From Campylobacterales bacterium (GTDB taxonomy: Bacteria > Campylobacterota > Campylobacteria > Campylobacterales > Sulfurimonadaceae), in contig JACUTT010000005.1 in NCBI GenBank assembly GCA_014859655.1, positions 1 through 64,000 on the forward strand: a DNA stretch of 64,000 nt, written 5' to 3'. Positions within the stretch are counted from its first letter, which is position 1, and each line of letters begins with the position of its first letter. Both the position numbers and the translations under genes were made by a program. The notes below the pieces were generated by a model that had not been told where the DNA came from, did no database searches, and saw only the letters and a program-made list of their open reading frames with translations. Below are positions 32,596-38,501 of the stretch, piece by piece.

Positions 32596-34215
32596 ATGAA
32601 ACTCTTATCGAAAAATGCCCCCCTTGAAGAATCGATTTCAAAGATGAAAGCCGTTTTACGCGAGGTGGGATGCGAGACGACCTTCTCGCAGGAGAAACAC
32701 CCCCTCAAACACTGCTACTCGGTCAACCTGGCCTCAGTCGAAGCGCCACGCCACATCTACGCCAACGGAAAAGGGGTGCTCTCGCAGGCCTCGATAGCCA
32801 GTGCCCTGGGCGAGTACATAGAGCGTCTGCAGACCAACAACTTTTTCATCGACTTCCATCTTCCCGAGCGTAAGTACTACCCCGACGAGGTCGCCTTTGG
32901 TTTTGATGAGGCGTATCTCAGCCGTGAACTGCGCGCGCTCTATGACCCGCAGGGCGAGCTGAGGGATGAGGCCTTTGTCGATTTTAACAGCGACTACACG
33001 GACCGGGTCGTTGCCCTTCCTTTTAACAAACACTCTAACGGAGAAAAGGCCTACATCCCGCTCAACATCCTGAGCAACCTCTATGTGAGCAACGGCCTGG
33101 CGACGGGAAACACTCCCGAAGAGGCGAAAGTGCAGGCGCTTAGCGAGATCTTCGAACGCTACGCCAAGATAGCCATCATCACCAAGGGCTACGCGCTGCC
33201 GAAGTTTCCTGACGAGGTTGTGCGCTCTTTCGAGCGCCTCCACAGCGATGTCGAGGCCCTGCGTGAACTGGGCTACATCGTTGAGGTGCTCGATGCTTCT
33301 CTGGGCGGGAAGTTCCCCGTCACTGCGATCTCGCTGATCAACCCCGAGACCTCCTCGCTCTTCGTCTCCTTCGGAGCGCACCCCATCCTTCAGGTCTCGC
33401 TTGAACGGACGATGACGGAGCTTATGCAGGGGCGCGGCGTGGAGAACCTAAATGCCTTCGAGGTCCCGACCTTTGACATGAGTCTGGTCGCGGACAGCTT
33501 CAACCTCGAGTCGCACTTCATCGACTCCAACGGGAAGCTGGGCTTTGGCTTTTTGAACCGCGTCAAAAGTTTCGAGTATGCCAAGTGGCGCTACGAGGGA
33601 GAGGGAAGCGGGGACGAGTACACCTACCTTCTGCGCATCCTAGAGTCGATGGGAAAAGAGATGTACCTGCGCGAGTACAGCTATCTGGGTTTCTACTCCT
33701 GCCAGATGATCGTTCCGGGCGTCTCTGAAGTTTACCCGGTAGAGGATCTGAACTACAACAACCGAAACAGCGGCAAATGGGTGCGTGAGATGATCTTGAA
33801 TCTTTCAGAGTGCGACCCCGAAGAACTTCTCGACCTGGTCGACTCGCTCGAAGATACGCTCAGCGTAGAGAAATACATCGGCGTTATTTTCGAGAACAAC
33901 TTCTCGATGCTCGAGCTCAAAGCGCAGCTGCACCTGCTGACGGGAAATACCGAGGAGGCGCTGAGTGCCTTTGAGTTTGGCAGCAACCGGCTGGGCCACG
34001 TCATTGCCGAGCTGATCCGCATGGAAGAGGAGGAGCTGGTGTGGGAAGAGTACGAAGAGGCGCTCTTCAACATCTTCGGGCGCGAAAGGGTACAAAAGGC
34101 CCTGCAAATCCTCTCAGGTGAGGCTTTTTACATCGACACGACTCTGCATGCGGACTACTGTAATGTGCTGGCCATGTATGATCGTCTGGAGAGAAAAAAG
34201 GTCTCCAGTGTTTAA
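32596..34215 (+). CDS. ycaO: YcaO-domain protein, S12 methylthiotransferase accessory type
   Basis: A 539-aa cytoplasmic protein. The YcaO ATP-binding domain spans about 50-400 with GVLSQASIASALGEYIERLQ and TPEEAKVQALSEIFERYAKI, holding the conserved Glu ligands for Mg-ATP. The C-terminal 130 residues are a helical repeat (LTGNTEEALSAFEFGSNRLG). This full layout matches E. coli YcaO, which aids RimO in beta-methylthiolation of ribosomal protein S12, rather than RiPP cyclodehydratases, which lack the tail and sit near precursor peptides. No rimO is in the window. Divergent from the efflux operon across a 147-base promoter region. Confidence 0.92.
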   Translation: MKLLSKNAPLEESISKMKAVLREVGCETTFSQEKHPLKHCYSVNLASVEAPRHIYANGKGVLSQASIASALGEYIERLQTNNFFIDFHLPERKYYPDEVAFGFDEAYLSRELRALYDPQGELRDEAFVDFNSDYTDRVVALPFNKHSNGEKAYIPLNILSNLYVSNGLATGNTPEEAKVQALSEIFERYAKIAIITKGYALPKFPDEVVRSFERLHSDVEALRELGYIVEVLDASLGGKFPVTAISLINPETSSLFVSFGAHPILQVSLERTMTELMQGRGVENLNAFEVPTFDMSLVADSFNLESHFIDSNGKLGFGFLNRVKSFEYAKWRYEGEGSGDEYTYLLRILESMGKEMYLREYSYLGFYSCQMIVPGVSEVYPVEDLNYNNRNSGKWVREMILNLSECDPEELLDLVDSLEDTLSVEKYIGVIFENNFSMLELKAQLHLLTGNTEEALSAFEFGSNRLGHVIAELIRMEEEELVWEEYEEALFNIFGRERVQKALQILSGEAFYIDTTLHADYCNVLAMYDRLERKKVSSV

Positions 34216-35976: not shown

Positions 35977-36735
35977 CTATTCCGCTGCGATCTCTTTTAA
36001 GGTTTCTATGATCGCTTCGGGCTCCATGCGGATCTTGTAATCCGTCTGTGCCTCCATTTCTCGGACAATGCCGTTTTGATCGATCACGAAACTTCCGGGA
36101 ATAGGCAGACCTGTGCGTGTGCTCCCGTTATAGGCTTCAATATCAAGCCCGTGTTTTTTGTAGATATCCAGCAGCTCCTGGGGCATATCGAAGTAGAGCT
36201 TGTAGGCTTTTATTACGCTGTTGTCAAGGTCGCTTAAGACTTCAAAAGGGTAGCCATCTTTTTTGATCTGCTCGGCTGACTTGTCCGGAGTTTGAGGCGT
36301 TACCGTGATCAGCTGTGCGCCATACTGTTTAAAGTCTTCGAGGTTTTCTTGGAGTACATGCAGGTGCATATTGCAAAAAGGGCACCATGCTCCGCGGTAA
36401 AAGACCAAAATAACGGGGCCTTTTTTCAGCTCCTCATAAAGCCTCACCTCTTTGCCAAAGGCATTTTTCAACGTAAAGTCAGGTGCCTTTTCGCCCGCTT
36501 GGATACCGGGATTGGGCAAACTCACGGCAAGATCCTCGCCGGCCTTTTTCATCACCGCCTGCTCCTGCTCGGAAAAGGTCGCCTTAGACGACTGCATCTT
36601 CTGCATAAAGGCCTCAAATTCGGCCTTGTAGCTTGCCACATCTTCAGAAGCATGCAGCATACTCACTGCCATAAGCACTGAAAGACCCAGGCCTAAACGT
36701 TTTGTTCTGTTTGTTCTGTTTGATTTTTTTGTCAT
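35977..36735 (-). CDS. Exported peroxiredoxin-like protein (AhpC/TSA)
   Basis: A 252-aa protein with an N-terminal leader (basic NRTNRTKR, then LGLGLSVLMAVSMLHAS) suggesting export. The thioredoxin fold starts EKAPDFTLKNAFGKEVRLYE; the active site FYRGAWCPFCNMHLH has Cys118 and Cys121 (CPFC). This is the Prx-like group with a CxxC, so peroxide or disulfide reduction in the periplasm is likely. The start at 36735 is fixed by AAGGAG. It is divergent from the HvfA-like peptide gene, with two CRP-type boxes in the shared promoter region. Confidence 0.9.
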   Translation of the reverse strand: MTKKSNRTNRTKRLGLGLSVLMAVSMLHASEDVASYKAEFEAFMQKMQSSKATFSEQEQAVMKKAGEDLAVSLPNPGIQAGEKAPDFTLKNAFGKEVRLYEELKKGPVILVFYRGAWCPFCNMHLHVLQENLEDFKQYGAQLITVTPQTPDKSAEQIKKDGYPFEVLSDLDNSVIKAYKLYFDMPQELLDIYKKHGLDIEAYNGSTRTGLPIPGSFVIDQNGIVREMEAQTDYKIRMEPEAIIETLKEIAAE

Positions 36736-36785
36736 TGTAGTGTCTCCTTGTTTTGGGCAGTATAGCCCTTTTTGACACCCCTGTA

Positions 36786-36801
36786 TGTAATGGATATCAC
36801 A
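36786..36801. promoter_or_regulatory. CRP-type box, one mismatch
   Basis: TGTAATGGATATCACA: right half TCACA perfect, left half TGTAA with one mismatch. Located in the divergent promoter of the peroxiredoxin and HvfA-like genes, about 51 bases before the peroxiredoxin start. Confidence 0.5.
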
Positions 36802-36825
36802 TAAAAGAGAGGGAAGGATTGGATG

Positions 36826-36841
36826 TGTGACCTTCGTCACT
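36826..36841. promoter_or_regulatory. CRP-type box, one mismatch
   Basis: TGTGACCTTCGTCACT: left half perfect, right half with one mismatch. It lies 60 bases before the HvfA-like start and 40 bases (centre to centre) from the other box, about four helical turns, so the two sites face the same side. Confidence 0.55.
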
Positions 36842-36900
36842 GACATAATTTTTTTACTGCTCTAAAATATCTCTTGAAATTAAAAACAAAAGGATTTAAG

Positions 36901-37149
36901 ATGACACGCATAAATATAGCAGCATGGGTTTTGGGGACCTTATTGATGGCAGCACCGATGGCAATGGCAGCAGAAGCAGGCGCAAAATGCGGTGCGGGTA
37001 AATGTGGCGGCAGCAAAGATGCCAAAACCAAAGAACAAGGCAAGTGCGGAAGTTCAAAAGAGAAGGCTGCTGATGCGAAATGCGGCGGCGATAAAGAGAA
37101 AAAAGCTGATGCCAAGTGCGGTACAGGCAAGTGCGGCGGCAGCAAGTAA
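36901..37149 (+). CDS. HvfA-like Cys-rich secreted peptide (candidate metallophore precursor)
   Basis: An 82-aa peptide with a clear signal sequence (WVLGTLLMAAPMAMA, cut before AEAG). The mature part is low-complexity Lys/Gly/Ala with six KCG units: AKCG, GKCG, GKCG, AKCG, AKCG, GKCG. It resembles HvfA-family precursors, whose EGKCG motifs are turned into copper-binding oxazolone/thioamides by a DUF692 (MNIO) enzyme; here one unit reads EQGKCG. A DoxX gene follows at once, as in hvf loci, but no DUF692 or HvfC partner is in the window. Start at 36901 has AAAGGA upstream. It may instead be a plain metal-buffering thiol peptide. Confidence 0.8.
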   Translation: MTRINIAAWVLGTLLMAAPMAMAAEAGAKCGAGKCGGSKDAKTKEQGKCGSSKEKAADAKCGGDKEKKADAKCGTGKCGGSK

Positions 37150-37155
37150 AGCCTA

Positions 37156-37641
37156 ATGGCAAATCCCATAAAAAAGGTAGTCAAAATGTGTATATTAAAA
37201 GAAAAAATGGACAGCGTACTGGATAAATCTAAGGATTTCTCCTTATTGTTGGTGCGTCTTATTCTGGCCTATGGTTTTTATGAGCCTGCGATGATGAAGT
37301 GGAAGGATATCGGTGCAGTTGCCGATTGGTTCGCCTCTATGGGCTTTCCTTTTGCGACCTTAAATGCCTACATGGCGGCCTCTGTCGAAGCTGCCGGTGT
37401 TGTTTTGCTTGTCTTGGGACTCTTTACCCGTTACATCACGCTTCCGCTGATCGTGGTGATGCTTGTTGCGATCACAACGGTTCATCTTGCAAGCGGCTTT
37501 TCAGCAGGAAACAACGGCTTTGAGATACCTCTGTATTATATGATCATGCTCTTGGTGCTTGCTGCGCACGGCGGCGGAAAATGGAGTATTGATACTCTTA
37601 TGGCAAAAATGAACTGTGGGAGTACCTCATGTTCAAACTAA
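37156..37641 (+). CDS. DoxX-family membrane protein (HvfX-like)
   Basis: A 161-aa inner-membrane protein with four helices: SLLLVRLILAYGFYEPAMMK, ASVEAAGVVLLVLGLFTRYI, LPLIVVMLVAITTVHLASGF and PLYYMIMLLVLAAHGGGKW, the DoxX layout. The tail ends MNCGSTSCSN with two Cys. Placed seven bases after the Cys-rich peptide gene, it corresponds to the DoxX member (HvfX) of RiPP-metallophore loci, thought to serve peptide handling or quinone redox; the exact role is unknown. The start could be any of ATG 37156, 37186 or 37207. The MBL gene overlaps its end by 13 bases. Confidence 0.88.
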   Translation: MANPIKKVVKMCILKEKMDSVLDKSKDFSLLLVRLILAYGFYEPAMMKWKDIGAVADWFASMGFPFATLNAYMAASVEAAGVVLLVLGLFTRYITLPLIVVMLVAITTVHLASGFSAGNNGFEIPLYYMIMLLVLAAHGGGKWSIDTLMAKMNCGSTSCSN

Positions 37642-38501
37642 GCTTTTTGCTGCTCTTTACAGCCTCGCTTCTGGCCTCCGAGGTGAGAGTTCAGGTCCTG
37701 GGTTCGGGAGGGCCGGAGTTTCATGCTCAACGCGCATCAAGTTCATATCTTGTCTGGGTCGATGAGAAAGCGAAGATCCTGATCGACTGCGGCGGCGGGA
37801 GCTTTTTGCGTTTTGCCCAAAGCGGCGCCAAGATCGAAGACCTCGACGCTATCTTGCTGACGCATCTGCACATTGACCATACGGCGGATCTAAGCGCCTT
37901 TATCAAGGCAGGCTATTTTAGCGACCGCTCGGTGCCTTTGCCGATCTTCGGTCCGCAGGGCAAAGGTGCTTTTCCCTCTCTTGATGTTTTTCTTGAACGT
38001 TTAGTTGGAGAGAGCGGTGCCTACGCCTACATGGCCGACACGCTCACCCCGCAGAGCCGCTCTTTTGAACTTTTGGCTAACGTGTTGCCGCAGGAGCAGA
38101 AGAGTACAAAAATGAAAGCATTTTTACTGCGCAGCATGGGCGTTCACCACGGTATCGTTCCTGCCCTGGCCTTTCGCATCGAGATTGAAGGCAAAAACAT
38201 CGTCTTCACCGGCGACACAAACGATCAGGAGCATTCTCTTGCGCAGCTGGCGGACAATGCCGACCTGCTCATAGCGGATTTTGCCATACCCGAAGCGGCC
38301 GATGAGATTTCCAAAAAGCTCCATATGCAGCCCTCGCTCATAGGCGAAATGGCACACCGGGCAAATGTCGCCCATCTGCTGCTCAGCCACATCATGAAAC
38401 GCTCCGAAGCCTCAATCGATCAAAGTATCGCTATAATCCGGGGTGCTAAATTTGACAAGAAACTAAGCATTGCGAACGATTTGATGATGATCACGCCATA
38501 G
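37629..38501 (+). CDS. Exported MBL-fold hydrolase (RNase Z/arylsulfatase-like group)
   Basis: A 290-aa protein with a signal peptide (FKLSFLLLFTASLLAS). The metallo-beta-lactamase motifs are VLGSGGPEFHAQRASSSYLV, THLHIDHTADL (HxHxDH), GVHHGIVPALAFRIE, VFTGDTND and LLLSHIMKR, pointing to a two-zinc hydrolase. Close relatives are annotated as ribonuclease Z-like or arylsulfatase-like, but periplasmic export argues against tRNA processing. It is translationally coupled to the DoxX gene, making a peptide/DoxX/MBL operon. Substrate unknown. Confidence 0.9.
   Translation: MFKLSFLLLFTASLLASEVRVQVLGSGGPEFHAQRASSSYLVWVDEKAKILIDCGGGSFLRFAQSGAKIEDLDAILLTHLHIDHTADLSAFIKAGYFSDRSVPLPIFGPQGKGAFPSLDVFLERLVGESGAYAYMADTLTPQSRSFELLANVLPQEQKSTKMKAFLLRSMGVHHGIVPALAFRIEIEGKNIVFTGDTNDQEHSLAQLADNADLLIADFAIPEAADEISKKLHMQPSLIGEMAHRANVAHLLLSHIMKRSEASIDQSIAIIRGAKFDKKLSIANDLMMITP

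Follow-up and report, generated by a model that had tools for sequence, protein, structure and literature searches.

An HvfA-like KCG-repeat peptide and HvfX without an MNIO enzyme in a Campylobacterales genome, and a GMC flavoprotein pair as candidate maturase

The genome of a Campylobacterales bacterium encodes an exported KCG-repeat peptide of the HvfA family, followed by an HvfX-type membrane protein and an MBL-fold hydrolase, and contains no detectable MNIO enzyme. We propose, with a probability of roughly 40%, that these genes belong to an exported copper-binding KCG system that operates without MNIO, and that a GMC flavoprotein with a Gluconate_2-dh3 (G2dh3) subunit is its likely alternative maturase; the proposal is built on sequence comparisons. 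MNIO enzymes are regarded as the defining makers of copper peptides of the HvfA and bufferin types. The large bacterial group described here has KCG peptides and HvfX mostly without MNIO, with a candidate replacement enzyme and with terminal tags on copper proteins. The question is made testable: either a flavoenzyme performs the modification in microaerobic bacteria, or the peptide works unmodified.

The window, which is the whole 64-kb stretch of DNA that was analyzed, belongs to contig C78; the genome assembly comprises 85 contigs with a total of 2.17 Mb (completeness 99.6%, contamination 4.84%). The closest related genes among named genomes are from Sulfurimonas and other Campylobacterales. 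Relatives were surveyed in 200 Campylobacterales genomes, a sample later enlarged to 374. Genomes were counted as HvfX-bearing if they contained an HvfX match over the NF050144 cut-off (n = 40 in the 200-genome sample), and gene neighborhoods were clustered using the genes around 40 HvfX/MNIO loci and the window.

The KCG peptide is composed of a Sec-type signal sequence, MTRINIAAWVLGTLLMAAPMAMAA, and a 56-residue core, in which each of the six cysteines is within a KCG unit. It matches the HvfA family model NF050137 with 31.8 bits (cut-off 19.5), and when the core was shuffled 200,000 times, six KCG units were never reached. These two results uphold the original prediction of an HvfA-like peptide carrying six KCG units behind a signal sequence; the units are KCG repeats and not strict EGKCG repeats. 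The DoxX gene, which had been said to follow the peptide as in hvf loci, indeed encodes an HvfX-family protein (124.8 bits against NF050144, cut-off 80). Its alternative start codon, ATG 37186, has a better ribosome-binding site than that at 37156. The start of the MBL hydrolase gene overlaps the end of the HvfX gene by 13 bases, in agreement with the predicted coupling of an exported hydrolase to the peptide locus, although the locus as originally delimited leaves the hydrolase out. MBL homologs are close to KCG, HvfX, or GMC genes in about 11 related loci. HvfX and the exported hydrolase would be operon partners of the KCG peptide, and the peptide would act without MNIO.

Table 1 Features of the window and of other contigs of the same genome.
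Feature	Position	Strand	Basis or remark
HvfA-family KCG-repeat peptide, 82 aa	36901..37149 (ATG 36901, stop ends 37149)	+	NF050137, shuffles, homologs in relatives
KCG repeat region, two KCGxGKCG motifs	36985..37146	+	Cys 30, 35, 49, 61, 73, 78 of peptide
HvfX-family DoxX membrane protein	37156..37641	+	NF050144, PF07681
Exported MBL-fold hydrolase (Lactamase_B_2)	37629..38501	+	Domain match, overlap with HvfX
Exported AhpC/TSA-family peroxiredoxin, divergent	35977..36846	-	Domain match; context only
YcaO protein, S12-accessory-like	32596..34215	+	Domain and family-model match
HMA-domain protein ending GKCGAGKCGGAE	C72, L195:5043-5465		C-terminal KCG tag
DsbD_2-type membrane protein ending MKCESGKCGA	C57, L194:4750-5502		Beside cbb3 oxidase genes
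Second KCG peptide gene	C42 (L192:220-483), C59 (L193:378-641)		

The gene of the YcaO protein is located 2.7 kb upstream of the peptide gene. YcaO enzymes act on cysteines in other RiPPs, and the protein might accordingly install azoline or thioamide groups on the KCG peptide. Nevertheless, its best match is to the ribosomal S12 accessory type (498 bits, below the cut-off of 700), and no YcaO homolog is near any other fetched KCG locus, which makes this the most improbable of the explanations considered here. The AhpC/TSA peroxiredoxin is not a conserved neighbor of the peptide in relatives, with no homolog in 367 fetched loci. YcaO and AhpC/TSA were both rejected as peptide partners because their homologs are absent beside other KCG loci.

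Searches of the whole genome with PF05114 for MNIO/DUF692 and with PF09836 for a DUF2063/HvfC-type partner found neither, so that the absence of both genes, first noted for the window, extends genome-wide. The PF05114 search works in Campylobacterales, because it matches MNIO in 16 of the 200 relatives and in 33 of the 374 genomes of the larger sample. MNIO is missing from 29 of the 40 HvfX-bearing genomes, including the closed genomes G102, G159, G192, G141, and G152. Lack of MNIO is no peculiarity of this one locus.

Maturation might occur in trans, as suggested originally, through an MNIO that is encoded at another site of the genome and is divergent or was overlooked. The assembly is split into contigs, and precursors located away from MNIO genes occur in other bacteria (PMC12452194). 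We regard this explanation as very unlikely, since the nearly complete genome has no PF05114 candidate while the same search identified the MNIO genomes among its relatives, closed relatives (G102, G159, G192) lack MNIO too, and the partner DUF2063 is also absent. Within the detection limits of PF05114, the empty whole-genome DUF692 search rules out a distantly encoded MNIO.

Neighborhood clustering separated MNIO-type loci, with the order KCG-MNIO-DUF2063-HvfX, from many MNIO-less loci, in which genes for a G2dh3 subunit and a GMC flavoprotein come after KCG and HvfX. Loci of this second kind occur in five families, with the genes in either codirectional or divergent orientation. The pair matches the Pfam families GMC_oxred_N/C and Gluconate_2-dh3. 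GMC adjoins KCG or HvfX in 14 MNIO-less loci from five families, at least 13 of which also contain G2dh3, and further linked loci exist, among them a contig of Sulfurimonas indica (L212) with the order KCG-HvfX-G2dh3-GMC. The pair carried by MNIO-less relatives is a third option that the original prediction, which chose between a distant maturase and an unmodified peptide, missed. The GMC profile matches 49 of the 200 genomes, including that of the window; the matches in G188 and G199 are weak, and the G188 copy (L155) is of a gluconate-dehydrogenase-like type. The GMC of the window's genome (900.8 bits) is on contig C69 with G2dh3 directly upstream. The two genes sit there among housekeeping genes, with no KCG gene beside GMC, and the same detached arrangement is present in G102, G159, and G192.

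The 40 HvfX-bearing genomes divide into 11 with MNIO only, 25 with GMC only, four with neither, and none with both (Fisher p = 6e-7, uncorrected for kinship). GMC is thus present in 25 of the 29 MNIO-less ones, including the window's genome. Over the genomes that lack MNIO, the KCG motif and GMC are distributed as 39/12/10/123 (odds ratio 40, p = 4e-20, uncorrected for kinship). The HvfX tree, few branches of which are strongly supported, has at least seven changes between the MNIO and GMC labels, and an independent-pairs test on this tree yielded few supported pairs. Genus g10 has six genomes of the MNIO kind and six of the GMC kind. In a fresh sample of the phylum, all three new GMC genomes have contiguous KCG-HvfX-G2dh3-GMC genes, with a broken GMC in one of them (G259), and among another 15 newly sampled GMC loci, all MNIO-less, 10-11 show linkage to KCG or HvfX. 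In G259 the GMC gene, which adjoins KCG and HvfX (L386:4891-6541), is split between two frames; the GMC genes of its relatives G245 and G281 are intact.

Five of the 374 genomes contain both MNIO and GMC; all belong to a single family, group f9, and their GMC genes are unlinked to KCG. The 200 genomes had suggested that MNIO and GMC strictly exclude each other, an idea given up after these five were found, and order-wide exclusion in the 374 genomes is not significant (p = 0.21). The relation between GMC and KCG is one of association and frequent physical linkage, not of strict exclusion, and the KCG proteins and GMC are probably functionally linked. A Sulfurimonas MAG contig (L227:982-7677) carries DUF2063-MNIO-KCG, MBL, and G2dh3-GMC together within 10 kb, and no other locus was found in which the two enzyme sets adjoin. 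In three loci (L131, L134, L136), Cys/Met-rich peptides with MKCGSGMM repeats precede GMC/G2dh3 and are perhaps a variant substrate. We found no report of a link of GMC to KCG peptides or KCGAGKCG tags in the openly available literature.

The best fold and sequence matches of the GMC flavoprotein are fructose dehydrogenase (FDH) and Burkholderia glucose dehydrogenase (BcGDH), and its 3Fe-4S cysteines are conserved as C-x5-C-x4-C. In BcGDH, His476 and Asn519 form the catalytic pair (PMC6719666). This pair is missing in all KCG-linked GMC copies, which have leucine in place of the histidine and proline (alanine in two) in place of the asparagine, whereas the distant gluconate-dehydrogenase-like GMC from the same order (L155) retains both residues. 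A plain gluconate dehydrogenase was ruled out on these grounds. Because both catalytic residues are lost, GMC is not an ordinary sugar dehydrogenase; it is an exported-type flavoprotein whose substrate is probably not a sugar. GMC oxidases can oxidize primary thiols (PMC7414962), and thiol chemistry in the KCG-linked GMC would need another base, since the lost histidine is the base of the known thiol-oxidizing GMC enzymes. Most G2dh3 sequences start with an RR-type signal, and in BcGDH the small subunit acts as a Tat hitchhiker, from which we infer Tat export of GMC with G2dh3. The G2dh3 profile had no real match in the PDB.

The KCG motif also occurs outside the repeat peptides. The pattern KCxx(G/A)KCG has matches in 61 of the 200 genomes, compared with about 10 for the reversed control. 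In MNIO genomes, every match falls in the precursor beside MNIO. In non-MNIO genomes, a nine-residue tag, mostly MKCxxGKCG, is present in 32 proteins of eight kinds: YtkA, NosL, DsbD_2, HMA, PCuAC, cytochrome c, CusB-type adaptor, and Spy-like proteins. The tag is positioned either at residues 22-25, right after the signal peptide, or at most 16 residues from the C-terminus. Genomes with terminal tags have GMC in 17 of 20 cases and MNIO in none of 20. Two tagged proteins are encoded in the window's genome (Table 1), and the DsbD_2 homologs in MNIO-containing relatives are untagged. Judged from these sequences, the KCG motif doubles as a terminal tag on other predicted copper-handling proteins in this lineage. 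Besides the two cysteines, the tag keeps the methionine, lysine, and glycine positions across unrelated protein families, which suggests that it is recognized by something.

Several further KCG-bearing genes were observed. The second KCG peptide gene of the window's genome and its flank are identical on C42 and C59, representing an assembly duplication or a real repeat. A CusB-type RND adaptor (L326:5266-6378) has MKCEAGKCG right after the signal peptide, and a gene of a KCG-bearing lipoprotein is a few kb away. A multicopper oxidase (L305:838-2523) from a genome without MNIO or GMC contains an internal KCGGAKCG in a Met-rich loop.

We propose a periplasmic role for the exported KCG peptide, which would bind copper or a comparable soft metal there. 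MNIO-DUF2063 would be replaced by the FAD/3Fe-4S GMC flavoprotein, exported with its hitchhiker-type Gluconate_2-dh3 subunit and encoded here on another contig. GMC would oxidize the KCG cysteines in the periplasm, and the electrons would leave through the Fe-S cluster and not to O2. That GMC modifies the KCG cysteines is a tentative hypothesis, somewhat less probable than not. MNIO, by comparison, converts cysteine to 5-thiooxazole in a four-electron oxidation with O2, and its precursor is best recognized with the signal peptide (PMC13419390); a thioaldehyde has been proposed in the MNIO route (PMC13097082). A cytosolic enzyme that depends on the leader would be unlikely to read the tag, because leaders vary among the tagged proteins and the tag can be at either end; a periplasmic tag-reading flavoenzyme would fit better. 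We speculate further, and consider it rather unlikely in this full form, that there is a second maturase class for KCG copper peptides: a periplasmic, O2-independent GMC with its hitchhiker subunit, which reads MKCxxGKCG wherever it is placed and modifies several copper proteins. If true, one modification would equip a whole periplasmic copper network of chaperones, NosL, CusB, cytochromes, and cbb3-linked membrane proteins.

Unmodified copper binding by thiols is almost as likely as modification by GMC. The KCG peptide and the tags would then be Cu(I)-thiolate binders forming a periplasmic thiol metal buffer, and the GMC pair would have a different task within the same copper or redox response, such as redox catalysis on thiols or metals, or would be a mere neighbor. 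A flexible, Lys-rich peptide can coordinate Cu(I) through unmodified cysteine pairs. Genomes G026 and G094 have tags without GMC or MNIO, and in the window's genome GMC is unlinked to the peptide; these observations favor unmodified binders. Unmodified binding is less easily reconciled with the conservation of methionine, lysine, and glycine in the tag across unrelated families, and with the tie of GMC to KCG genes in many genomes.

A possible origin of the locus is suggested by G170, a genome from the same family with the order KCG-MNIO-DUF2063-HvfX. The pairing of the peptide with DUF692 in close relatives, named originally as an argument against the prediction, is thus found in part. The HvfX of the window is nearest to that of the MNIO-type G170 (64%, support 83), and the KCG peptide is closest to the G170 peptide (66%). 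The locus may therefore descend from an MNIO-type cluster, and it may have lost MNIO in a genome that already held GMC. The same kinship is compatible with a decaying cluster, from which MNIO and DUF2063 were lost recently while the peptide and HvfX linger. Decay is improbable, as the peptide, HvfX, and MBL genes are all intact and coupled, the genome also encodes two intact KCG-tagged copper-type proteins and an intact second KCG peptide, and KCG-HvfX loci without MNIO are frequent, closed genomes included.

The system that we propose, with GMC as candidate maturase, resembles known copper-peptide and dehydrogenase systems in parts. It shares the signal-bearing KCG-repeat precursor, the six cysteines, and the HvfX-type DoxX protein with the HvfABCX oxazolin cluster of Haemophilus influenzae, which makes a copper-binding 5-thiooxazole RiPP. 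In contrast to that cluster, the window's genome has no HvfB (MNIO) and no HvfC (DUF2063), an MBL hydrolase is coupled instead, and strict EGKCG repeats are missing. HvfBC needs O2 and prefers the precursor with its signal peptide (PMC13419390). By sequence, the window peptide corresponds to an HvfA/oxazolin-type precursor in its signal, KCG repeats, profile match, and HvfX, but not in MNIO or a DUF2063/PME-type 1 partner. Bufferins with Buf_EGKCG precursors likewise have an exported Cys-rich precursor with DoxX, and fusion proteins that join bufferin-type motifs to different metal-binding domains have been described (PMC12452194). The published counts treat MNIO-less Buf_EGKCG precursors as a rarity (67 of 2583 genomes; PMC12452194), whereas in Campylobacterales the MNIO-less form is the more frequent of the two. 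The GMC/G2dh3 pair shares the fold, the 3Fe-4S spacing, and the small Gluconate_2-dh3 subunit with the FAD/3Fe-4S dehydrogenases FDH, BcGDH, and gluconate 2-dehydrogenase. It differs from them in the substitutions of the catalytic histidine and asparagine, in the genes of its neighborhood, which include no conserved cytochrome c, although one could act from elsewhere, and in its linkage to KCG peptides.
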